From Thermosynechococcus sp. (GTDB lineage: Bacteria > Cyanobacteriota > Cyanobacteriia > Thermosynechococcales > Thermosynechococcaceae), in NCBI RefSeq assembly GCF_025999095.1, contig NZ_AP024678.1, forward strand, positions 434,001 through 498,000: 64,000 nt of DNA, given 5' to 3'. Shown here one piece after another: positions 6,511-27,534 of the stretch; the stretch's first letter is position 1, and the number at the start of each line of letters is the position of its first letter. The notes below the pieces were generated by a model. That model saw only the letters and a program-made list of their open reading frames with translations, was not told the origin of the DNA and did not search any database. The position numbers were made by a program, and so were the translations under genes.

Positions 6511-6729
6511 ATGACAGATGAATTTGACACGGCACTGCCTAGCATTCGCCAAGTACAGACCTTCATTAAAGATAGCACCGAGGTTGAAGTCAAGCTCAGC
6601 ACCAGCGATCTTGTGGTTGGTAAAGTGCGCTGGCAGGATACGAATTGCCTCTGCGTTGTCGATCACTATGATCAACCCACAATTATTTGGAAGCAGGCCA
6701 TTGTCTTTATTAAACCGAAGCTAGCCTAA
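6511..6729 (+). CDS. hfq: Hfq-like Sm-fold protein (cyanobacterial type)
   Basis: A 72-residue protein starting [20 protein letters not shown]. It matches the divergent cyanobacterial Hfq, which keeps the Sm1 core (a VEVKL...G(K/T)VRWQDT pattern) but lacks the canonical proximal RNA-binding residues of enterobacterial Hfq. In Synechocystis, Hfq is needed for type IV pilus-dependent motility through the pilus motor rather than for classical sRNA pairing. The start is preceded by GGGAGGGG. It is divergent from dapF, and its 3' end overlaps the convergent larC by nine bases. Confidence 0.85.
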
Positions 6730-7920
6730 GGGCCACAGTTGCAGTGCCACTGCCAAAGCCTCTTGATAGACCATCTGCCAAGGGTGCTGATGTTGACGAG
6801 CAAGGGCGGCACAGTCTTCGTATTCCGGCTGGACATTGATCCGCTTTCCTTGGTGCTCCGCTACTTTCACCCGCACTTTGCCAAAGGGGGTTGGGATTTC
6901 CTGCATTTGCCGCTCTAGAATATAGCGCTCCTGTACCTGACGCCGTAGCCCCAGGGTTGTGGTTTCACGGAAGAGCGTCTGCACACAGGCGGCCTCAGCA
7001 CTAGGGGGACACAGTACCGTCACCAACACCCCCAAGCGCGATTTTTTCATCGTTATCGGCTGACAAAAGACCTCAATGGCCCCGACGGCATAGAGTTGTT
7101 CGCAGGCATAGCTAAGGGCTTGGGGGGGCATGTCATCCAGTTGGGTTTGCAGTTCCACAACTGTTTTTGCGGTTCCTGTTTCTGCTGAATTCAGCGGCGT
7201 TCCCAACCAGAGCCGCAGTAGATTGGGTAGGGGCAGCTCTTGAGTACCGGCGCCCAAGCCCACCCGTTTCAATGTCATTGCTGGCGGCGCACCAAATCCC
7301 TCACTGAGGGCACAAACAAGAGCAGCTCCCGTAGGCGTGACTAATTCTTTTTCAATGCCGTTGCTGTAGAGGGGCACTTGATAGCTTTGGTACAGTTGCA
7401 AAACAGCGGGAACAGGAACTGGCAGTTGACCATGGGCCGCTTTGACCATTCCGCCCCCAGTGGGTAGAGCCGAGCAGTAAATGTGACTCACATCGAGGTA
7501 ATCCAACCCCAAGCAGGTGCCGACAATATCCACCAGGGCGTCCACCGCCCCCACTTCATGGAAGTGCACTTTTTCGGGCGCAATGCCGTGCACGGCACCC
7601 TCAGCAATGGCCAAGGCTTCAAAAACCTTAAGACTCCAGTCGCGGGCGCGATCGGGGAGATGGGCGGCCCGGATTTGGTCGGCAATCTCCGGCCAATGGC
7701 GATGGTGATGGGACTCGCGATCGCGCAGATGTACCTGTGCTTTTAACCCCCGCTGTCCCTTGCGCTGTACCGTTTCTGTAGTCAACTCAAACTCATCGGC
7801 AATCCCTAACTTTGCTAATTGGCTTTGGAGATAGTCAAGGGGAACCCCCAGATCAAGGAGGGCACCTAAGCACATATCCCCAGCCACACCAGCAGGGCAA
7901 TCAAAATAGGCAACAGTCAT
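6721..7920 (-). CDS. larC: LarC-like nickel-pincer cofactor protein (DUF111)
   Basis: A 399-residue protein starting [20 protein letters not shown], the hallmark of the LarC/DUF111 family. A histidine-rich stretch ([14 protein letters not shown]) lies near residues 69-82 and the motif [16 protein letters not shown] near residues 120-135. In lactobacilli LarC is a CTP-dependent cyclometallase that inserts nickel into the lactate racemase cofactor. Many bacteria carry larC without a recognised LarA, so the target enzyme here is uncertain. No larA, larB or larE is visible in the window. The last residues overlap the hfq 3' end. Confidence 0.85.
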
Positions 7921-8038
7921 GGCAGATTACAGGCGCAGCACTAAGGGATATGGTAACAAGGGACAATTGATTGATATGCTGCCTATTCTTATCCCACTTT
8001 TGCTTTTGCAGAGTCTGTTGCTGCCCCCTCTGACCAAA

Positions 8039-8389
8039 TCAACTGTTGATACACCATTGGGGGGGCTGCCATTGGTAGCGCCTCAAGTTAATGCGATCGC
8101 CCCCCTCAAAGATAATCCCCTCTACCTCTAGGCGCCAGCGCTGCAATTCATCTGTCCCGCGGCGTTGGGGCCCATAGGAAATTTTGCCTTGAGCATTGAC
8201 CACGCGGTGCCATGGAATGTCAGAATGGGGTGCCACCCGATAGAGGGCATAGCCCACATAGCGCCCATGGCGAGGCCAGCCACACAGGGCGGCAACTTGG
8301 CCATAGGTAGCCACACGCCCTAGGGGGATTTGCTGCACTAGCCAATAAATTTTTTGTTGAAACGTTAGTGCCCCTGTGTCCATCTTCAT
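8039..8389 (-). CDS. Alkyltransferase-like protein (ATL), MGMT family without the cysteine
   Basis: A 116-residue protein matching the C-terminal DNA-binding domain of O6-alkylguanine-DNA alkyltransferase, with the winged-helix stretch GRVATYGQVAALCGWP. The active-site segment reads PWHRVVNAQGKISY: tryptophan replaces the cysteine of the PCHRV motif. By family knowledge, such ATL proteins bind O6-alkylguanine and flag it for nucleotide excision repair instead of removing the alkyl group. The start is one of two nearby ATGs (8389 or 8383). It is a single gene with no obvious partner nearby. Confidence 0.88.
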   Translation of the reverse strand: MKMDTGALTFQQKIYWLVQQIPLGRVATYGQVAALCGWPRHGRYVGYALYRVAPHSDIPWHRVVNAQGKISYGPQRRGTDELQRWRLEVEGIIFEGGDRINLRRYQWQPPQWCINS

Positions 8390-8747
8390 AGGACTTTATA
8401 CTTTTTTTATACTTGCTTGTTTTTATGCTTGTCGGTCAGAGTCAGCCCTTCTAAATCCGTATTTCTACGGAAGCAAGCCTCAAAACGACCCACCTAGATT
8501 AAACATTAAGGGTAGTAACAGGATTACTAAGTTCAATTAAGAACAACTGCCCCCAAAAAGATAGATCGGTCATGATCTAAGCAGCAGCAATGCGGAGGCA
8601 GGGGAGGGTGGAATTCGTAGCTTGTTTTGAACCATTACGTATGTCTCATCTAATTGCTTTTTGCTCAATGATTGCTTCTATGCCTTTTTGACTTGACTTT
8701 TCCAGTGTCTTTGTCAATATTCCTGACGCTATTGGATGGAGTCCCCT
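8390..8747. other. Divergent intergenic region before the V4R cluster
   Basis: About 360 bases without a convincing gene, between the leftward ATL gene and the rightward V4R cluster. It is AT-richer than its surroundings with short T-tracts. It should contain the promoter of the seven-gene cluster. I could not identify a confident -10/-35 pair, a perfect NtcA site or an RNA gene in it. Confidence 0.5.
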
Positions 8748-9485
8748 ATGACCATGACCAGTTCCCGACCCCAAGCCGCCGCTGGCGATCGCTACGGTGT
8801 TCACCATCTCCTGCGCAAAAAATACCCGAAACGCCACCATCACTATGCTTTTTGGGACTTCTTTCACTTCGATAGCGATAGCGGTACCTACACGGATTGG
8901 AACAATGCCCGCAACCTCCTAGTGACCGAAGATTTTATCATTGGTCTCATTGAAGGTCTGGAAGAGGAAGTGGGACCTGCTTCCAGCGTGGTTATGTACA
9001 AAATTGGCCAAGAATGGGGCCGGCGCGATGCCCAGTTTTTTGCAGAGTGGTTTCCCAGTGAATATGGCTATGAGCAGGGGATCAAGCAAATGCGGCTTCC
9101 CTATGTCCTCGAAGCGTGGTGGTGGCCCTGCACGACCCAAGGCTGGGGGAACTGGGAAGTGGATCTCAGCGAGCAAAAACACGGCTTCATGTTCATCAAT
9201 ATCTTTGATTCGGCAGTGGCGCGCACCCTAGGCGACGTGGGACGGCCAGTTTGCCACCTCTATGCAGGACTGTTTGCTGGTTTCTTTAGTGGCTTGGTTC
9301 AAAAAGAACTCGGTTGTATTGAAATCCAGTGCTACGCCATGGGCGAAACCTACTGCAAATTTGTCTTGGGCAGGCAGGATCGCATTGACGCGGTTGCCTT
9401 TTGGCAGAACGAAGGCGCCTCCGCCAAAGATATCGAAAAACGGCTCCGCAGTGGAGAATTGGTTTATGGGGAACCTAAACGATAG
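8748..9485 (+). CDS. V4R-domain protein, Slr0144-like
   Basis: A protein of about 245 residues with a C-terminal V4R (4-vinyl-reductase-type) domain, seen in the closing pattern CYAMGETYCKFVLG. V4R domains bind small hydrophobic ligands and occur in BchJ-type and sensory proteins. This one is the first gene of a cluster that matches Synechocystis slr0144-slr0152, reported to help photosystem II assembly. I chose the ATG at 8748, with GGATGGAG upstream, over 8736. The gene overlaps the next by 20 bases. The ligand is unknown; binding of a chlorophyll intermediate is only a family-based guess. Confidence 0.8.
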   Translation: MTMTSSRPQAAAGDRYGVHHLLRKKYPKRHHHYAFWDFFHFDSDSGTYTDWNNARNLLVTEDFIIGLIEGLEEEVGPASSVVMYKIGQEWGRRDAQFFAEWFPSEYGYEQGIKQMRLPYVLEAWWWPCTTQGWGNWEVDLSEQKHGFMFINIFDSAVARTLGDVGRPVCHLYAGLFAGFFSGLVQKELGCIEIQCYAMGETYCKFVLGRQDRIDAVAFWQNEGASAKDIEKRLRSGELVYGEPKR

Positions 9486-10035
9486 TTGGCAGCAGCAAAC
9501 CGTTGCGGCATTCTTTGAGGAGCTGAACTGGCTCGGCTTGATCCGCCAGCAGCCAGTGACAGAAACGGTGGTTCTCAACTGGCAATCACTGAAGGTGGGA
9601 GAATTTTGGCAGCGCGTCAATTGGCTAGGTCTTGAGGTGAAAGGGGCGATCGCCCCCCCTAGCCCCCAGCAATGGCCGAACTACCGCGTTAGGGACTTCT
9701 TTGGGCGCATGAATTGGGAAGGGGTAGGCGTGATCTTGCCCACCGCCTCGCCGGTCGCCGCCGCGGAAATGACACCGCCGCCTACCCTAGCCAGCTCTTG
9801 GGCTGCTTGGTCAGTTGAAACCTTTTTCCGCCAACTCAACTGGGAGGGCCATCGCGATCAAACCATCTCCCTAGAGCCAAGTTTGTCCCTGTGGCACCTA
9901 TCAGTCAAAGACTTCTGTGCCAGTCTGCCTTGGGCAGGCCAGCCCCTGATCGCCCAAGTGAGTAAGGTGGCAGAACCGCCCCCTGTCCCCGTAGAGCCCG
10001 AAGTCACCCTCTCACACTTAGCAAACCTGTTTTAG
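9466..10035 (+). CDS. NWxG-repeat protein of the V4R cluster (Slr0145 position)
   Basis: A 189-residue protein built of five degenerate repeats, each a Trp followed by V-x-x-F-(F/W/C)-x3-(N/P)-W-x-G. The cores read VAAFFEELNWLG, VGEFWQRVNWLG, VRDFFGRMNWEG, VETFFRQLNWEG and VKDFCASLPWAG, joined by proline-rich linkers. No catalytic motif, signal peptide or membrane segment is seen. The start at ATG 9466 lies inside the end of the upstream V4R gene; the frame is open further upstream only as an overlap shadow. It occupies the place of slr0145 in the Synechocystis cluster. A scaffold or multivalent binding role is inference. Confidence 0.72.
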   Translation: MGNLNDSWQQQTVAAFFEELNWLGLIRQQPVTETVVLNWQSLKVGEFWQRVNWLGLEVKGAIAPPSPQQWPNYRVRDFFGRMNWEGVGVILPTASPVAAAEMTPPPTLASSWAAWSVETFFRQLNWEGHRDQTISLEPSLSLWHLSVKDFCASLPWAGQPLIAQVSKVAEPPPVPVEPEVTLSHLANLF

Positions 10036-10044
10036 GAGACCCCT

Positions 10045-10530
10045 ATGCACACCGAATTGCTGAATCTCTACTACAAAGCTGAAGAAAATTACCTCAGCAA
10101 TGTGGACATCAAAGTCTTTCGCCACCACATCGAGTCGCTTCAGCAGCGGTTGAGCACCTATGAATTTCTGCGGGATCATGAAATTGCAATCTTCCAGCCA
10201 GTAGCTGACGCCCTGCAAAAGAAATATCCCACCGAACCCCCCCAAACCCTTGAGCAGGTGTTGCGGCAGGCGATCGCCCTCCTGCGCTATGCTGCCATGG
10301 CCATGCTCCTCAATAATCCAGAGTTTTTGCAGCACCGGCTCCTCGAATGGCTCACGGAAGTGGTCAAGGCCCACCAAACCCAAACCCTATGGAGCAGTTG
10401 CCATGAGCTTCTCAGTGCCCGCCTCAAGGAAATGCTCACTGACGCTCAGCAGGACTTGATTTTGCCGCTATTGGATCAGGCGCAAGCGACCCTTGTGGGC
10501 GTGCCAGCGGTGGTCTCTGTCCACGCCTAG
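10045..10530 (+). CDS. Helical protein of the V4R cluster (Slr0146 position), possible phycobilisome fold
   Basis: A 161-residue all-helical protein. The N-terminal region (YKAEENYLSNVDIKVFRHHI) and the middle (RQAIALLRYAAMAMLLNN) vaguely recall the globin-like phycobiliprotein fold. I see no conserved bilin-attachment cysteine context. An AGGAG lies just upstream of the ATG, and the gene follows the NWxG protein by nine bases, so co-translation is likely. It corresponds in position to slr0146, of unknown biochemical role. A link to phycobilisome or photosystem assembly is inferred from context only. Confidence 0.7.
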   Translation: MHTELLNLYYKAEENYLSNVDIKVFRHHIESLQQRLSTYEFLRDHEIAIFQPVADALQKKYPTEPPQTLEQVLRQAIALLRYAAMAMLLNNPEFLQHRLLEWLTEVVKAHQTQTLWSSCHELLSARLKEMLTDAQQDLILPLLDQAQATLVGVPAVVSVHA

Positions 10531-10575
10531 ATGACTGTTGAAATTGTTTGTCAGGCCTACGAATGAGGATGTCCT

Positions 10576-11247
10576 ATGATCTCCGTTGCTGATTTGGTCA
10601 AAGATGCCGCCATCCCCGGCAATTACTACGCTGCCGATGCCTATGTGCAGGGGGATTTTGAAACCGGTCTCATTGAAAACCGCAAAGGTGCCCGTCTGAT
10701 TGCCCTGCCGGATATTTTGCTGCAAGCCATCTATGCGGGCCTCCATCAAGAAGTAGGGCAGGCCTCTGGGGTTGTGCTTTTTAACTGTGGTCGCTGGTGG
10801 GGCAAAAACTTTTATCGCCGCTTTGTGGCTGAGGTGAGCGAGTACTATGGCCGTCCCCTTGCGGAGATGGAAATGGTGGAGTTTCTCCAATGCCTCAAGG
10901 AATGCTGGAAGACCCACGGTTGGGGCAGGATTGATCTCGATGTCAGCTTTTACCAGCAGGGCTTTTTGGTGGTGAAAACGTGGGACTCTCCCTTTGCGGC
11001 GGCAGCTCCCCAAAATACGGGCCAGCCCCAATGCGCTGCGGAAGCAGGGATTTTAGAATCCTTCTTTAGCCAATTGACCGGTCGCGATCTCCACTGTGTG
11101 CAAACCGCCTGTGAAACCCTAGGAGCAGCCAATAATTGCTTTGTTTTGGGGTTGCGCGAGCGCGTTGAACCGGCCAAGGCTTGGCTCCAGGAAGGACAGG
11201 GTCATGACACAATTATGGAGCGGCTATGTCGTGCTCAGGCCCCTTGA
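10576..11247 (+). CDS. Second V4R-domain protein, Slr0147-like
   Basis: A 223-residue paralogue-like partner of the V4R protein at 8748. It shares the overall plan: an N-terminal helical region, a central segment with GLHQEVGQASGVVLFNCGRWWG, and a C-terminal V4R ending CETLGAANNCFVLG. A GAGGA box precedes the ATG. Two V4R proteins in one cluster suggest a heteromeric ligand-binding unit, but that is inference. Position and order match slr0147, immediately before the ferredoxin gene, as here. Confidence 0.8.
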   Translation: MISVADLVKDAAIPGNYYAADAYVQGDFETGLIENRKGARLIALPDILLQAIYAGLHQEVGQASGVVLFNCGRWWGKNFYRRFVAEVSEYYGRPLAEMEMVEFLQCLKECWKTHGWGRIDLDVSFYQQGFLVVKTWDSPFAAAAPQNTGQPQCAAEAGILESFFSQLTGRDLHCVQTACETLGAANNCFVLGLRERVEPAKAWLQEGQGHDTIMERLCRAQAP

Positions 11248-11303
11248 GTATGATCCTAAAGTAACTCCCTATGCGTCATTAATAATGTAAGGAGAAAAGA
11301 GCA

Positions 11304-11786
11304 GTGGCCAAAGTTGTCAAGCTTGAACCCATCTCGCGGGAAACCACGGTTAACACCAACGACAATTTGCTGTCTGCTCTATTGGACTCTGAACTCCATG
11401 TGCTCAAGGAGTGTGGCGGGCGCGGAATGTGTGCTACCTGCCATGTCTATATCAAAGAGGGGATGGAGAGCCTTTCCCCGATCACTAAGCGGGAGCAACG
11501 CACCCTTGAGGTGATTACGACGGCAAACGCAACTTCCCGCCTCGCCTGTCAGGCACGAGTTCTGGGGCCGGGGGTAGTGGTAGAGCTTCCCTCAGGGATG
11601 TATATCAATGCAGTAGAAGATATTGAGTCTTTGATTGGGCGGCGGGCAGAGCAGGATATTTTGCACCCCCTCGACGGTCGTGTGTTAGTGGAGGCAGGCA
11701 AGCTGATTACGCGCACGATGATTACCCAGTTGAAAGATACCCAAGTTAAGGTGAGTGAATACCTCGCCAATACGTCGGATGCTTAA
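11304..11786 (+). CDS. 2Fe-2S ferredoxin-like protein, Slr0148-like
   Basis: A 160-residue protein with an N-terminal 2Fe-2S ferredoxin domain. Three cluster ligands lie in CGGRGMCATC (near residues 38-47), and a fourth is the distal cysteine in SRLACQARV (near residue 84). The spacing differs from plant-type photosynthetic PetF. The C-terminal 70 residues are an extra domain (from INAVEDIESLIG onward) not found in short ferredoxins. Translation starts at GTG 11304, with AAGGAG about eight bases upstream. In the matched Synechocystis cluster this is slr0148. It probably provides electron transfer to a partner in the cluster. Confidence 0.85.
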   Translation: MAKVVKLEPISRETTVNTNDNLLSALLDSELHVLKECGGRGMCATCHVYIKEGMESLSPITKREQRTLEVITTANATSRLACQARVLGPGVVVELPSGMYINAVEDIESLIGRRAEQDILHPLDGRVLVEAGKLITRTMITQLKDTQVKVSEYLANTSDA

Positions 11787-11824
11787 CAACCACTTCATTT
11801 TTATCCTCAGGGAGGCACTGTAGT

Positions 11825-12625
11825 ATGGAAGACCGTAGTTTGAACTCCCATGACGCGCCATCGCCCAGAGGGCTCGAACCCGTAGAATGGGGCGCAACAG
11901 GTTTAACGGTTGTGTTGTCTGTGGCCGCTGCTGCAACCCAACAAACAATTTTGAGCGCGATCGCCCCCTTGCCCCTTTCGTTGGCGGTGGGCTTAAACTT
12001 AGTGAGCCGTAAAAAACTGGCTGACCAGCTCCAAGCCTTCGGCCAGCAACAGGAGGCCAAAATGGCTGAACTGGTAGCATCCCAAGGGCAACAGCAGTCA
12101 GAGTTGGCTAACCTCACCCTTGCCCTTGGTCGGGTGCGCGATCGCCTGGAGGACCTCCAGCAACAGGTGGAAAAACTAAGTCAAGGCACCCAGCATCTCC
12201 ATGACTATACCCGCATTCTCGACACGGAGCAAAAAGAACTTGAACAGGTTCTTGACTGCCTGCGGGAAATTGAGAAAAATACCCAAGTTATCCAGGTGAA
12301 TCCCAGCCATGCCAAGGCCTACTACAACCGCGGTCTGACCCATCAGCGGCTAGGAGACGTGGAAGCAGCCATTCTCGATTACACAGAAGCGATTCGCCTC
12401 AACGATACCTATGCCAAGGCCTATCATAATCGCGGTGTGGCGCGCTCAACGGTGGGCGATCGCAAGGGAGCAGTAGAGGATCTGCGTACAGCAGCGAAGC
12501 TGTTCTTTGAACAGGGGGATATTAGCAGTTATCAGCGAGCACGGGATCTGGCCAAGCGCATCCATGAAGTAGGGAGTATTGAACAGGACAATAAAGAACT
12601 CCCCTTAGAAATTCTCTTCTCTTAG
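11825..12625 (+). CDS. Membrane-anchored TPR protein, Slr0151-like
   Basis: A 266-residue protein in three parts. Two hydrophobic segments (about residues 23-62) should anchor it in a membrane. A coiled coil follows (about 65-150, rich in Gln, Leu and Glu). Two tetratricopeptide repeats follow, the first starting AKAYYNRGLTHQRLGDVEAA and the second AKAYHNRGVARS. TPR domains dock partner proteins. Slr0151 of Synechocystis is a thylakoid/plasma-membrane protein implicated in photosystem II assembly and repair. AGGGAGG lies upstream of the ATG. The kinase gene follows after about 90 bases. Confidence 0.83.
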   Translation: MEDRSLNSHDAPSPRGLEPVEWGATGLTVVLSVAAAATQQTILSAIAPLPLSLAVGLNLVSRKKLADQLQAFGQQQEAKMAELVASQGQQQSELANLTLALGRVRDRLEDLQQQVEKLSQGTQHLHDYTRILDTEQKELEQVLDCLREIEKNTQVIQVNPSHAKAYYNRGLTHQRLGDVEAAILDYTEAIRLNDTYAKAYHNRGVARSTVGDRKGAVEDLRTAAKLFFEQGDISSYQRARDLAKRIHEVGSIEQDNKELPLEILFS

Positions 12626-12716
12626 GGAGCAGTTCATTTTGTTCCTGACCCTGCATTGACAGGGGCGCGATCGCGAATCATATTGAGAGCTGTTTTTGAC
12701 AGATAGTTGAGGCTGG

Positions 12717-14510
12717 TTGTTGGCCACAGCGCATGCTGCTCTAAGTTCGCGTTACCGGCTGGTGGATCTTGCAGGTCAGGGCCAGTACGGACAGGTCTAC
12801 TTGGCAGTCCATCGCCAGTCGGGGGAACTGGTCGCAATTAAGGTACTCAATGAGCAGCAATTGTTGACCCGTGGCTTTTTACGGGAGTTGAATTTTCTCC
12901 TGACCCTTCAGCATCCCCATGTAGTGGGCTGCCAGGCCATCGACTACATTTGCTTACCCACGAGCCCCCGAACTCGTCGTAGTTTGGTGATGGATTATTG
13001 TGTGGGGGGCACATTGCGATCCCTCCTTGATCAAGAGCAGGCGTTGCCTTTGGCTACCGCTTTGCGCCTAGCGCTGGATATTCTCTCTGCCTTAGCCTAC
13101 GCCCATCACCGCGGCATTCTCCACTGCGATCTCAAACCCGAAAATATCCTCCTGGAGGTAACTGCTACGGGCTGGCAGGCAAAGGTGTCCGATTTTGGCG
13201 TGGCACGGCTAATTGAGGATGTCAAGGGCAGCGGTCAGACCGGTTCCCCGGCCTACATGGCGCCGGAGCGCTTTTATGGTCAAACGCTGCCCGCTTCAGA
13301 TCTCTATGCAGTGGGAATCCTCCTGTACGAGATGATTGTTGGCGATCGCCCCTTCCACGGTACACCTGCTGAACTCATGGCTGCCCACCTCAGCCGCCCC
13401 TATACCCTTCCCGAGGGACTGCCCTTTCTGGTGCGGAGCCTTATTGCTAAGGCATTGGATAAATTACCGCAGCGCCGCTATAAAAGTGCAGGGGCAATGA
13501 CGATGGCTGTGCAACTCGCTCTCGAGGTTATCGAAGCAGAGTGTCATGGGCAGCCTCTATTGTTTTCTAGGTCACCGGCGACGGTTTGGCTGGGGGAACC
13601 CCAAGGTTTTTCTTTGCCGCGACCGCCCCAACAGCTTGCCAGCACGGCCACAAGGTTCTATGGGGTGGTGGGCGATCGCCTGTGGGCTTGGCAAAGCAGG
13701 GATTCTCAGCCTGAAGTGATCGGTCAATGGCCGCTGCCACCCCTACCGCTACAACTCTATGGTGGTGAGTTCAGGGCTTGGCTGCGGCTTCAGGGGCTGC
13801 CCCCACGGCTTTACTGCATTGATGAGCAGCAGATTCCCCTAGGATGTCGTCTGCTGTCCACCCACAACAGCTTAGCCATTGATACCAGTGGTTACTGGTG
13901 TGCAGAAACCGAGATTGATCCTGATGTCGGAACATTGACGCTGCATATCCAACGGCTGCATGGTCAAGGAGAGCGCACCCTTCGCTGTGCGTGGCAGGGA
14001 CGGGTGTGGGTCGATACACTCCTGCTCAATCGTCGCTATGGCGCGGTGATTAGTCGCTCCCAAGATCCTGAAACGGCGCATCCCATCACCCATTTTCAAC
14101 TCTTTGACCGCCGAGGACACTGGCGACTATCCACCCAACTGCCTGCCCACTTGACGTTGTTCACCCCTGCCCATCACCAACCATGGCAAGTAGCGGCGTT
14201 TGAGGATCATCCGCAGCAACCTCTATTGATGCTTCTACATTTGCGGCCTTGGCGGATTCAACGCTTGGGGCTGCGGTTTCGTCCCCAATTTCTCTGTGCC
14301 ACCCCCTGGGGCTATGTGGTGGCGGGTCGCCATAGTTTGAATTTAGTGACCCACAGGGGCGAAATTGTCGGTACGGCGGACAGTGAACAGGAGATTGAGG
14401 GCCTTGGCTTTACGGGCGATCGCCACCTTTGGTTGATTCGCCGGCAGGGAGGTGGGTGTCTGATACAAACGTGGGACATTACCACGTGGGACATTAACCT
14501 CATCCTCTAG
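12717..14510 (+). CDS. Ser/Thr protein kinase, SpkG/Slr0152-like
   Basis: The N-terminal 270 residues are an eukaryotic-type kinase: glycine loop GQGQYGQ, Lys42 in VAIKVL, catalytic loop HCDLKPEN (Asp138, Asn143), DFG at 159-161 and APE at 182-184. The usual HRD arginine is cysteine, making it a non-RD kinase. Residues about 290-597 are not a PASTA, WD or TPR domain I recognise; they contain many short beta-like segments with Trp. The start is uncertain: TTG at 12717 or 12720, with no good ribosome site. In Synechocystis the last gene of this cluster is slr0152 (spkG). Confidence 0.8.
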   Translation: MLATAHAALSSRYRLVDLAGQGQYGQVYLAVHRQSGELVAIKVLNEQQLLTRGFLRELNFLLTLQHPHVVGCQAIDYICLPTSPRTRRSLVMDYCVGGTLRSLLDQEQALPLATALRLALDILSALAYAHHRGILHCDLKPENILLEVTATGWQAKVSDFGVARLIEDVKGSGQTGSPAYMAPERFYGQTLPASDLYAVGILLYEMIVGDRPFHGTPAELMAAHLSRPYTLPEGLPFLVRSLIAKALDKLPQRRYKSAGAMTMAVQLALEVIEAECHGQPLLFSRSPATVWLGEPQGFSLPRPPQQLASTATRFYGVVGDRLWAWQSRDSQPEVIGQWPLPPLPLQLYGGEFRAWLRLQGLPPRLYCIDEQQIPLGCRLLSTHNSLAIDTSGYWCAETEIDPDVGTLTLHIQRLHGQGERTLRCAWQGRVWVDTLLLNRRYGAVISRSQDPETAHPITHFQLFDRRGHWRLSTQLPAHLTLFTPAHHQPWQVAAFEDHPQQPLLMLLHLRPWRIQRLGLRFRPQFLCATPWGYVVAGRHSLNLVTHRGEIVGTADSEQEIEGLGFTGDRHLWLIRRQGGGCLIQTWDITTWDINLIL

Positions 14511-14553: not shown

Positions 14554-15510
14554 ATGAAACAGCCGCAGATTCTCAAAATTACCCGCAAAGCTGCCAGTCT
14601 TAAACAAAAGCAAAAACAGCAGTCATCTCCTGTGGCGCTTGATGTAACAGCAACAACGGTGGCCTCTGAACCCGTTGTTGAGGTAACAGCGGGCGATCGC
14701 GACAGTGCCCAGGGGCGTCAACATTGGTGGAGTGAACGCTGGATAGGTGTGCTGGAGTCCTTTGGCTGGCGACGGCGCCTAGAGCGGGCACGCAATTATG
14801 TGCGGGAGGGGCGAGTCCTAACCTTAGAGTTCAAGGGCAACCAAGTCCATGCCCAGGTTCAGGGCACGGCTGCCGACCCCTATCACGTCAAACTGCATTT
14901 GGATGCCTTTAGTGAAGAGCAGTGGCAATATGCCATTGACGGCATGGCCCAAAAAGCCTTCTATGCCGCAAAGCTCCTGGCGGGTGAACTGCCCCCCAGT
15001 ATTGAAGAAGTCTTTACCCAAGCTGGACTGAGTTTATTTCCCTTTACGAAATTTGACATCCATAGCCGCTGCAATTGTCCTGACCCAGTCAATCCCTGCA
15101 AACATATTGGCGCCGTCTATTACTTGTTGGGGCAGTACTTCAACGAAGATCCCTTTCTGCTCTTTCAATTGCGGGGCAAAACCAAAGAAGAGATTCTCCA
15201 ACGCCTGCGCCACTATCGGGCAACAGCTACCACCCCCTCTATGGCGCCTACCCCCCCACCCCTCTATGAGCCGCCGAAAACCGATGCTCACTTTTGCCAA
15301 TATCGCCAGCCCCTACCTCCAGAGTTAGTGGTGCTTGTCCCCAGTGGCCAACCCCATGGCGTGCTTTCAGTCTTACCCCCCTTTCCCCACGAAGTTTCCA
15401 GTGAAGTGGCACAGTTAATGGCCACCCTAGAGCAGATGTACAGCAGTGCTAGTCTTGCCGCCTGTCGGTTGGCCATGAGTGAACCCCCTGGCGTAGAAAG
15501 TAACCAATGA
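14554..15510 (+). CDS. SWIM zinc-finger protein
   Basis: A 318-residue protein with a SWIM motif, CNCPDPVNPCKHIGAVYY, in the CxC...CxH arrangement near residues 175-192. SWIM fingers bind DNA or proteins and often accompany Snf2 helicases. Here the finger stands in a free protein with a basic N-terminus (KITRKAASLKQKQKQQ) and a proline-rich C-terminal half. It starts 43 bases after the kinase stop, so it may be transcribed with the V4R cluster, though it is not part of the Synechocystis set. Function unknown. Confidence 0.78.
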   Translation: MKQPQILKITRKAASLKQKQKQQSSPVALDVTATTVASEPVVEVTAGDRDSAQGRQHWWSERWIGVLESFGWRRRLERARNYVREGRVLTLEFKGNQVHAQVQGTAADPYHVKLHLDAFSEEQWQYAIDGMAQKAFYAAKLLAGELPPSIEEVFTQAGLSLFPFTKFDIHSRCNCPDPVNPCKHIGAVYYLLGQYFNEDPFLLFQLRGKTKEEILQRLRHYRATATTPSMAPTPPPLYEPPKTDAHFCQYRQPLPPELVVLVPSGQPHGVLSVLPPFPHEVSSEVAQLMATLEQMYSSASLAACRLAMSEPPGVESNQ

Positions 15511-27024: not shown

Positions 27025-27534
27025 ATGCGTGATGCCGTCACCACACTAATTAAAAACTACGACTCCACCGGTCGCTACCTCGATCGCGATGCTGTTGACA
27101 GGTTGCGCTCCTACTTTAATTCCGGTGCGGCACGGGTGAAAGCGGCAGCAGTGATCAATGCCAATGCCGCCGCCATCGTTAAGGAAGCAGCTTCTGCCCT
27201 CTTTACAGAGCAGCCGGAACTGATTCAACCCGGCGGTAATGCCTACACCACCCGCCGCTACGCCACCTGCCTACGGGATATGGACTACTACCTGCGCTAT
27301 GCCAGCTATGCCATTGTGGCCGGGGATGTGGATGTCCTCAACGAGCGTGTCCTCGAAGGTTTACGGGAAACCTACAACTCCCTTGGCGTGCCCATTGGAC
27401 CAACGGTGCGCGGCATTCAAATTATGAAAGAGATTGTGCGCGATCGCGTGGCTGCGGCTGGCATCGAAGACACCCGTATTGTTGAACAGCCCTTTGACTA
27501 CATGTGCCGCCAACTTAGTGAAGTGAATATCTGA
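27025..27534 (+). CDS. apcF: Allophycocyanin beta-18 subunit
   Basis: A phycobilisome core subunit of 169 residues. Cys82 in YATCLRDMDYYLRYA is the phycocyanobilin attachment site, and Asn72 in GGNAYTTRR is the conserved beta-subunit asparagine that is usually methylated. It differs from ApcB by its longer C-terminus and sequence, fitting ApcF, which replaces one ApcB next to the core-membrane linker ApcE. AGGAGT lies upstream of the ATG. The 158-base leader after uvrB probably contains its promoter. Confidence 0.93.
   Translation: MRDAVTTLIKNYDSTGRYLDRDAVDRLRSYFNSGAARVKAAAVINANAAAIVKEAASALFTEQPELIQPGGNAYTTRRYATCLRDMDYYLRYASYAIVAGDVDVLNERVLEGLRETYNSLGVPIGPTVRGIQIMKEIVRDRVAAAGIEDTRIVEQPFDYMCRQLSEVNI

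Follow-up and report, generated by a model that had tools for sequence, protein, structure and literature searches.

The subject of this analysis is a compact cluster of seven genes at positions 8748-14510 of a 64,000-nucleotide stretch of the Thermosynechococcus sp. genome (hereafter, the window; the source genome is a single contig of 2.50 Mb). The cluster is almost certainly the Thermosynechococcus version of the already known slr0144-slr0152 cluster of Synechocystis; the cluster itself is not new, and its gene set is known as pap. The reading that we put forward, tentatively and with somewhat less than even confidence, is that pap is a kinase-controlled complex for handling bilin or another tetrapyrrole which originates from relatives lacking photosystem II (PSII) and was retargeted to PSII in cyanobacteria, with a TPR protein serving as the dock in some lineages, and that the globins of this complex repeatedly switched between Cys, with covalent bilin attachment, and Trp at this position through a one-base change. 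Under the same tentative claim, the ancestral complex would include a pair of V4R proteins, an adrenodoxin-type ferredoxin, globins, a linker protein with NWxG repeats and a kinase similar to SpkG. Sequence comparison suggests that this V4R-ferredoxin-globin-NWxG-kinase core predates its role at PSII, because related clusters are present in members of the phylum without detected PSII.

The initial annotation described seven genes in tandem, arranged as in slr0144-slr0152, and both statements are borne out: the seven genes at 8748-14510 are confirmed by Pfam matches, lie on the same strand and are closely packed, and their order is the counterpart of slr0144-slr0152, with the V4R pair around the genes in the NWxG and globin-fold positions, followed by the genes for Fd5, the TPR protein and SpkG:

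8748-9485, plus strand, V4R-A, the Slr0144-type V4R protein (Pfam V4R, 80.8 bits; cut-off 31)
9466-10035, plus strand, NWxG repeat protein in the slr0145 position (five FFxxLNWxG-type units; no domain family matched)
10045-10530, plus strand, phycobiliprotein-fold protein without Cys, in the slr0146 position (Pfam Phycobilisome, 46 bits; cut-off 22.2)
10576-11247, plus strand, V4R-B, the Slr0147-type V4R protein (Pfam V4R, 62.1 bits; cut-off 31)
11304-11786, plus strand, [2Fe-2S] ferredoxin Fd5, slr0148 type, with a GTG start (Pfam Fer2, 42.8; cut-off 21)
11825-12625, plus strand, TPR protein, slr0151 type (Pfam TPR_1/TPR_11)
12717-14510, plus strand, SpkG-type Ser/Thr kinase, slr0152 type, with an uncertain TTG start (Pkinase, 157.7 bits; cut-off 31.7)

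The distances between neighboring genes are -20, 9, 45, 56, 38 and 91 bp, a spacing that appears compatible with a single transcript; the best start of the NWxG gene is the ATG at 9466, which accounts for the 20-bp overlap with the V4R-A gene. Promoter-like sites around the cluster occur at the chance level (4 seen vs 3.9 expected).

None of the 18 genomes of the sister class matched PF00124 (PSII reaction centre); completeness reaches 90% or more, with contamination of no more than 5%, in 9 of the 18, including G010 and excluding G119. Only G010 and G119 contain a V4R match, and in each of these genomes a kinase is linked to the V4R genes. One strand of the G010 locus (L060) encodes a bilin reductase (Fe_bilin_red), a longer phycobilisome-fold protein and the kinase; the other encodes, in this order, a ferredoxin, V4R-A, an NWxG-type protein, a globin, V4R-B (without a Pfam match and assigned by BLAST) and Heme_oxygenase. 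In G119 (L199), the kinase gene lies 1 bp downstream of the V4R-B gene, and the contig ends approximately 0.25 kb upstream of V4R-B, in a globin-like-looking piece. When the kinase domain of the window protein was compared with the 512 scored candidates from the 18 genomes, the two V4R-linked kinases ranked first, with 137 and 120 bits, followed by a third candidate with 110 bits; by this sequence measure, they are the closest relatives of SpkG among the 512. In a tree rooted at the midpoint only, in which the L199 kinase is represented by its identical copy L212, both group with 21 selected SpkG rows at 100/99. Two further Ser/Thr kinases, at 12338-13852 and 14247-15455 of L060 (rows L207 and L217), fall outside the SpkG group. 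The initial annotation proposed PSII assembly control as the job of this cluster. Given that core genes together with a SpkG-like kinase are present in two genomes of a class in which 0 of 18 matched PSII, such control is unlikely to have been the original job, as far as can be judged from gene content.

The NWxG-type protein of L060 scores 47.9 on a nine-residue matrix derived from the cyanobacterial units, whereas none of 1108 control open reading frames (ORFs) of 150-350 aa scored above 19 and none of 2000 shuffles reached the L060 score. Because this score is far above the controls, the NWxG gene is probably an old member of the cluster, fixed between V4R-A and the globin. In the protein encoded in the window, the F[FWC]xx[LVM][NP]WxG unit occurs five times, and a search at E 0.1 yielded neither a Pfam nor an NCBIfam family. 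A further locus, L061, follows the order of L060 (ferredoxin, V4R-A, a further ORF, globin, V4R-B); it encodes two Fd5-like ferredoxins and one CKGD globin at 6666-11493, and no kinase ORF was found in its 20-kb stretch.

The gene content of the cluster was surveyed in two sets of loci. The named ferredoxin loci are the 80 best of 546 and therefore lean towards close relatives; 31 of the 80 are covered by at least 7 kb on both sides, and 23 of these 31 carry both V4R genes. The second set is an evenly drawn sample of 20 stretches, 17 of which contain both V4R genes. Both V4R genes lie within 7 kb of the ferredoxin in 58 named loci, where a globin-fold gene is present in 58/58 and the NWxG label, assigned by weak BLAST matches or motif counts, in 56/58. 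The arrangement exceeds chance. Synteny is conserved, and the common system envisaged in the initial annotation is judged likely. A gene of the slr0149 type is found near the ferredoxin in 21/23 covered named loci and in 15/17 loci of the even sample. Split or partial loci also exist, with the ferredoxin alone or with the ferredoxin and a globin only, as would be expected if the genes were merely co-transcribed neighbors without a joint function; this explanation appears highly improbable considering that the linkage survives three gene orders and recurs in genomes without a PSII match, and that the Slr0144-Slr0149 interactions in Synechocystis were validated by affinity purification (PMC9880817).

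SpkG is encoded within 7 kb of the ferredoxin in 21/23 covered named loci with both V4R genes, over three gene orders, in 1/7 covered named loci without any V4R gene nearby, and in 10/17 loci of the even sample, L060 being one of the ten. The TPR gene is kept in one gene order compared with three for SpkG and is present in 8/23 covered named loci and in 11/17 of the even sample. Compared with the kinase gene, the TPR gene accordingly looks less stable in the named loci (8 vs 21 of 23) but not in the even sample: not every cluster has SpkG nearby, and within that sample SpkG is found no more often than the TPR gene. The TPR protein itself consists of an N-terminal hydrophobic stretch (recognized by eye in the translation), a probable coiled coil and the TPRs. 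The SpkG assignments take the window kinase as the reference: among the kinases of the genome, those of the cyanobacterial loci that are called SpkG have the window kinase as their best match, form one clade and score at least 223 bits against the window SpkG vs at most 100 bits against any of its ten remaining kinases. A profile of the C-terminal domain of SpkG displays weak likeness to WD40 (best E 0.005). A second type of kinase, with the best match to own_L152, which is unlinked to the cluster in the window genome, shares its stretch with the ferredoxin gene in 24/80 named loci, often lying approximately 3-4 kb upstream and on the opposite strand (L062-L141).

The catalytic loop contains the HCD motif in 67/72 SpkG-type kinases and HRD in 35/35 other kinases of these loci, counting only ORFs with an HxDxK motif and some contigs twice; HCD is missing from the G010 and G119 kinases and from three cyanobacterial SpkG proteins, the latter with HRD. 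The Cys of the loop looks like a cyanobacterial addition and could possibly be a redox handle. Such a handle, the linkage of the kinase to the cluster and the existence of bilin-binding relatives of the globins (PMC10151467) could all be accommodated by a bilin-based light or redox sensor, in which SpkG reads the state of a bilin-globin and passes it on by phosphorylating Fd5 along with other proteins, and the complex does not act as a carrier. We consider such a sensor improbable: the bilin-loaded relatives show no photoconversion (PMC10151467), the globins often have Trp instead of the Cys, no sensor domain was recognized, and HRD persists in the three cyanobacterial SpkG proteins.

Fd5 is a ferredoxin of the adrenodoxin/Isc type with a conserved C-terminal extension, in which Cys 37, 43, 46 and 82 are kept in 101/101 homologs. 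Its best PDB sequence matches are the ferredoxin 1i7h and putidaredoxins, among NCBIfam families the ISC 2Fe-2S ferredoxin comes closest, with a score under its cut-off, and the nearest named relatives are 94-96% identical proteins in three Thermosynechococcus records. Thr18 and Thr72, which we take to be phosphosites, are conserved in 99/101 homologs each; with Thr45, Thr67 and Thr136 equally conserved, this does not set them apart. The Synechocystis fed5 product was likewise called adrenodoxin/Isc-like (PMC4284462), and its phosphorylation is lost in an spkG mutant, the activity of SpkG itself not having been verified (PMC11863333).

The V4R proteins are 30% identical to each other, and the V4R-A residues C169, C195 and C203 are kept in 77/77 aligned homologs. 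The V4R-A profile shows weak similarity to the V4R portion of phenol-sensing regulators (5fru, MopR; E 0.005 and 0.04). Slr0147, of the V4R-B type, is among the proteins with RNA-dependent sedimentation according to RAPDOR (PMC12475003). A V4R-B label upstream in L062 is an artefact.

The initial annotation listed a possible phycobilisome-fold protein, and the fold is supported by the Pfam Phycobilisome match; the protein itself is no light-harvesting subunit but, judging from its sequence, a paralog of the bilin biosynthesis-associated globins (BBAG) that lacks the Cys. The CxRD bilin-anchoring motif is absent from the window protein, which has Val in the bilin-Cys column; Cys is found in this column in 6/79 homologs. 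In the tree, the window globin and 13 homologs form one group (94/98) beside the slr0149 type. Both are split at 100/99 from six proteins of the genome (L031-L036) that we take to be light-harvesting subunits, based on scores and on sequence features; this separation rules out the window globin as a light-harvesting phycobiliprotein. A further gene of the phycobilisome family (203.8 bits) lies in the window at 27046-27516.

A second locus is present at G000:C1:1949360-1951129, 1.5 Mb along the contig from the window cluster. It consists of the third V4R gene of the genome, whose product is 65.8% identical to V4R-A, followed by two tandem globins of the slr0149 type, both with CRRD. The same V4R-A2/globin/globin locus is found in 13/29 genomes of the order, that is, 11 of the genus and G137 and G139, and both globins carry the CxRD motif in all 13 loci, L165 included. 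In G133, a fourteenth genome, V4R-A and the globin are missing from the main cluster; another contig carries one V4R-A gene together with a CLRD globin. From the second locus in 13 genomes and the pair in G133, we conclude that V4R-A is relocated jointly with the bilin-type globin. The split version of the cluster in Thermosynechococcus separates such a pair from the rest of the cluster.

Of 85 slr0149-type globins, 40 have Cys at the anchoring position, 43 have Trp and 2 have Ser; near relatives are abundant in this sample, and some contigs enter it twice. Trp is encoded by TGG in 43/43 cases, and Cys by TGT in 22 and TGC in 18. A quick tree of these globins requires 10 changes at this residue, of which the starred branches make at least 5 unavoidable, so that, as read from the alignment and this tree, the anchoring Cys has repeatedly been switched with Trp. 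The switch provides natural variants for asking whether covalent attachment of bilin matters. Alignment columns 121 and 146 contain an extra Cys in 23 and 19 of the 43 Trp-type globins, respectively, and in 1/40 Cys-type globins each, a difference that is confounded by kinship.

Taken together, these features could be explained by a ferredoxin-V4R-globin complex that handles bilin or another tetrapyrrole, is tuned by the action of SpkG on Fd5 and was later used at PSII, a model whose chances we put just short of even. In this membrane-docked complex, V4R-A and V4R-B would hold a hydrophobic or tetrapyrrole ligand; the globin without Cys would pair with V4R-B at the main locus, and the bilin-type globins of the second locus with V4R-A. 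Fd5 would be the supplier of electrons, phosphorylation by SpkG would switch Fd5 or the entire complex, and the TPR protein, where present, would dock the complex to PSII during assembly or repair. As the simplest guess, the ligand would be a tetrapyrrole or bilin, given the adrenodoxin/Isc-like nature of Fd5, the weak match to MopR, and the heme oxygenase and bilin reductase genes in G010. Through the kinship of the kinases and their linkage in genomes without detected PSII, the SpkG-Fd5 pair acquires a defined and testable place; if correct, SpkG would control, by phosphorylation, the electron carrier of a bilin-type complex.

Wegener et al. (2008), as cited by others, reportedly linked the pap cluster to PSII assembly; to our knowledge, reviews still offer no mechanism for the cluster. 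Deletion of slr0151 results in less PSII and impaired D1 replacement (PMC9145668), and a role of Slr0151 in PSII assembly and repair was described in the paper that refers to these proteins as Pap (PMC4853703). These PSII phenotypes, the contacts of Slr0151 with CP43 and D1 (PMC4853703, PMC9145668) and the authors' suggestion that the V4R pair binds pigment (PMC9175036) are all in line with a PSII-specific chlorophyll-handling chaperone, with chlorophyll or one of its precursors as the cargo of the V4R pair, D1/CP43 as the docking site of the TPR protein, tuning by the ferredoxin and the kinase, and any other uses incidental. This explanation appears unlikely, if by no means far-fetched, given that two genomes lacking a PSII match have related clusters that include a SpkG-like kinase, that the TPR gene is present in only 8/23 covered named loci (although in 11/17 of the even sample), and that the pap proteins increase in light-activated heterotrophy while PSII subunits drop (PMC9175036).

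Several observations weigh against the proposed kinase-controlled bilin or tetrapyrrole complex and its origin outside PSII. There are two clusters in all among the genomes without a PSII match, one of them cut by the contig end, and transfer of the cluster between lineages may have occurred. The L060 kinase is short (336 aa), a link between the C-terminal parts of SpkG and the G119 kinase is unsupported (hhalign probability 1), and the L061 protein in the NWxG position has no score on the matrix. SpkG is not nearby in 7/17 loci of the even sample, a count that refers to the vicinity only, and the TPR gene is as frequent there as SpkG (11 vs 10 of 17). The window globin, to judge from its residues, cannot hold bilin by the usual Cys, and 45/85 globins of the slr0149 type lack the anchoring Cys. 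Finally, the PSII phenotypes published for the cluster come from Synechocystis itself and leave room for a PSII-specific role.

Downstream of the kinase gene, at a distance of 43 bp, the plus strand encodes a SWIM zinc-finger-like protein (14554-15510; SWIM score under the cut-off). Among 102 stretches, this gene was labelled only in the window, L042, L062 and L063, which are loci of the Thermosynechococcus type, and the protein is probably not part of the system.

Compared with known systems, the closest is the slr0144-slr0152 cluster of Synechocystis sp. PCC 6803, with the same order of V4R, slr0145-position, slr0146-position globin-fold, V4R, Fd5, TPR and kinase genes; the Synechocystis-like order was seen in L046 and L073, the gene names being taken from papers. 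In Synechocystis, slr0144-slr0151 form an octacistronic operon, which includes fed5/slr0148 and fed4/slr0150, both dispensable for photoautotrophic growth (PMC4284462). The initial annotation considered slr0149 and slr0150 to be missing; indeed, neither type is encoded between Fd5 and TPR in the window, but the slr0149 type has been moved and duplicated rather than lost, and its two copies lie beside the second V4R-A. The best match to slr0150 in the genome, 59% identical and with the motif CRAGACVNC, is unlinked to the cluster; a plant-type ferredoxin ORF is present at the pap locus in 16/24 loci examined, with CFDC in 13/16. The published pap cluster itself varies, and for this reason the absence of both genes from the window locus is variation, not exclusion from the pap cluster: the slr0149 homolog of Acaryochloris RCC1774 has the counterparts of slr0144-0148 and slr0151-0152 next to it (PMC6002478), and genes adjacent in Synechocystis are often absent elsewhere (PMC10151467). 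With the same strict motif applied to all 75 other NWxG ORFs, five units as in the window protein were found in 4 and 0-3 units in the rest. Like SpkG (slr0152), the window kinase is the last in the cluster and combines a kinase with a C-terminal domain, a likeness judged on sequence kinship. The V4R proteins share their domain with the BchJ family of bacteriochlorophyll 4-vinyl reductases; identity with BchJ is ruled out by a score of 20.6 bits vs the equivalog cut-off of 74.3. In titles, abstract openings and passages from the open-licence literature, no description was found of SpkG staying near the ferredoxin through three gene orders, of the related clusters in the sister class, of an ancient membership of the kinase or of the NWxG protein (the NWxG motif was not searched), of the Cys/Trp switch (the supplementary trees of Rockwell et al. 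may show the globin residues) or of the second locus of Thermosynechococcus. The cyanobacterial cluster was derived by Rockwell et al. (2023) from pre-PcyA clusters, and only some cyanobacterial BBAGs contain the CxRD motif (PMC10151467). The window locus differs from the pre-PcyA clusters in having no heme oxygenase or bilin reductase, and the available text of that paper names no kinase or NWxG member of the core cluster; what the pre-PcyA clusters with BBAGs have in common with the window are the two V4R proteins, the Fe-S protein and the globin or globins (PMC10151467).

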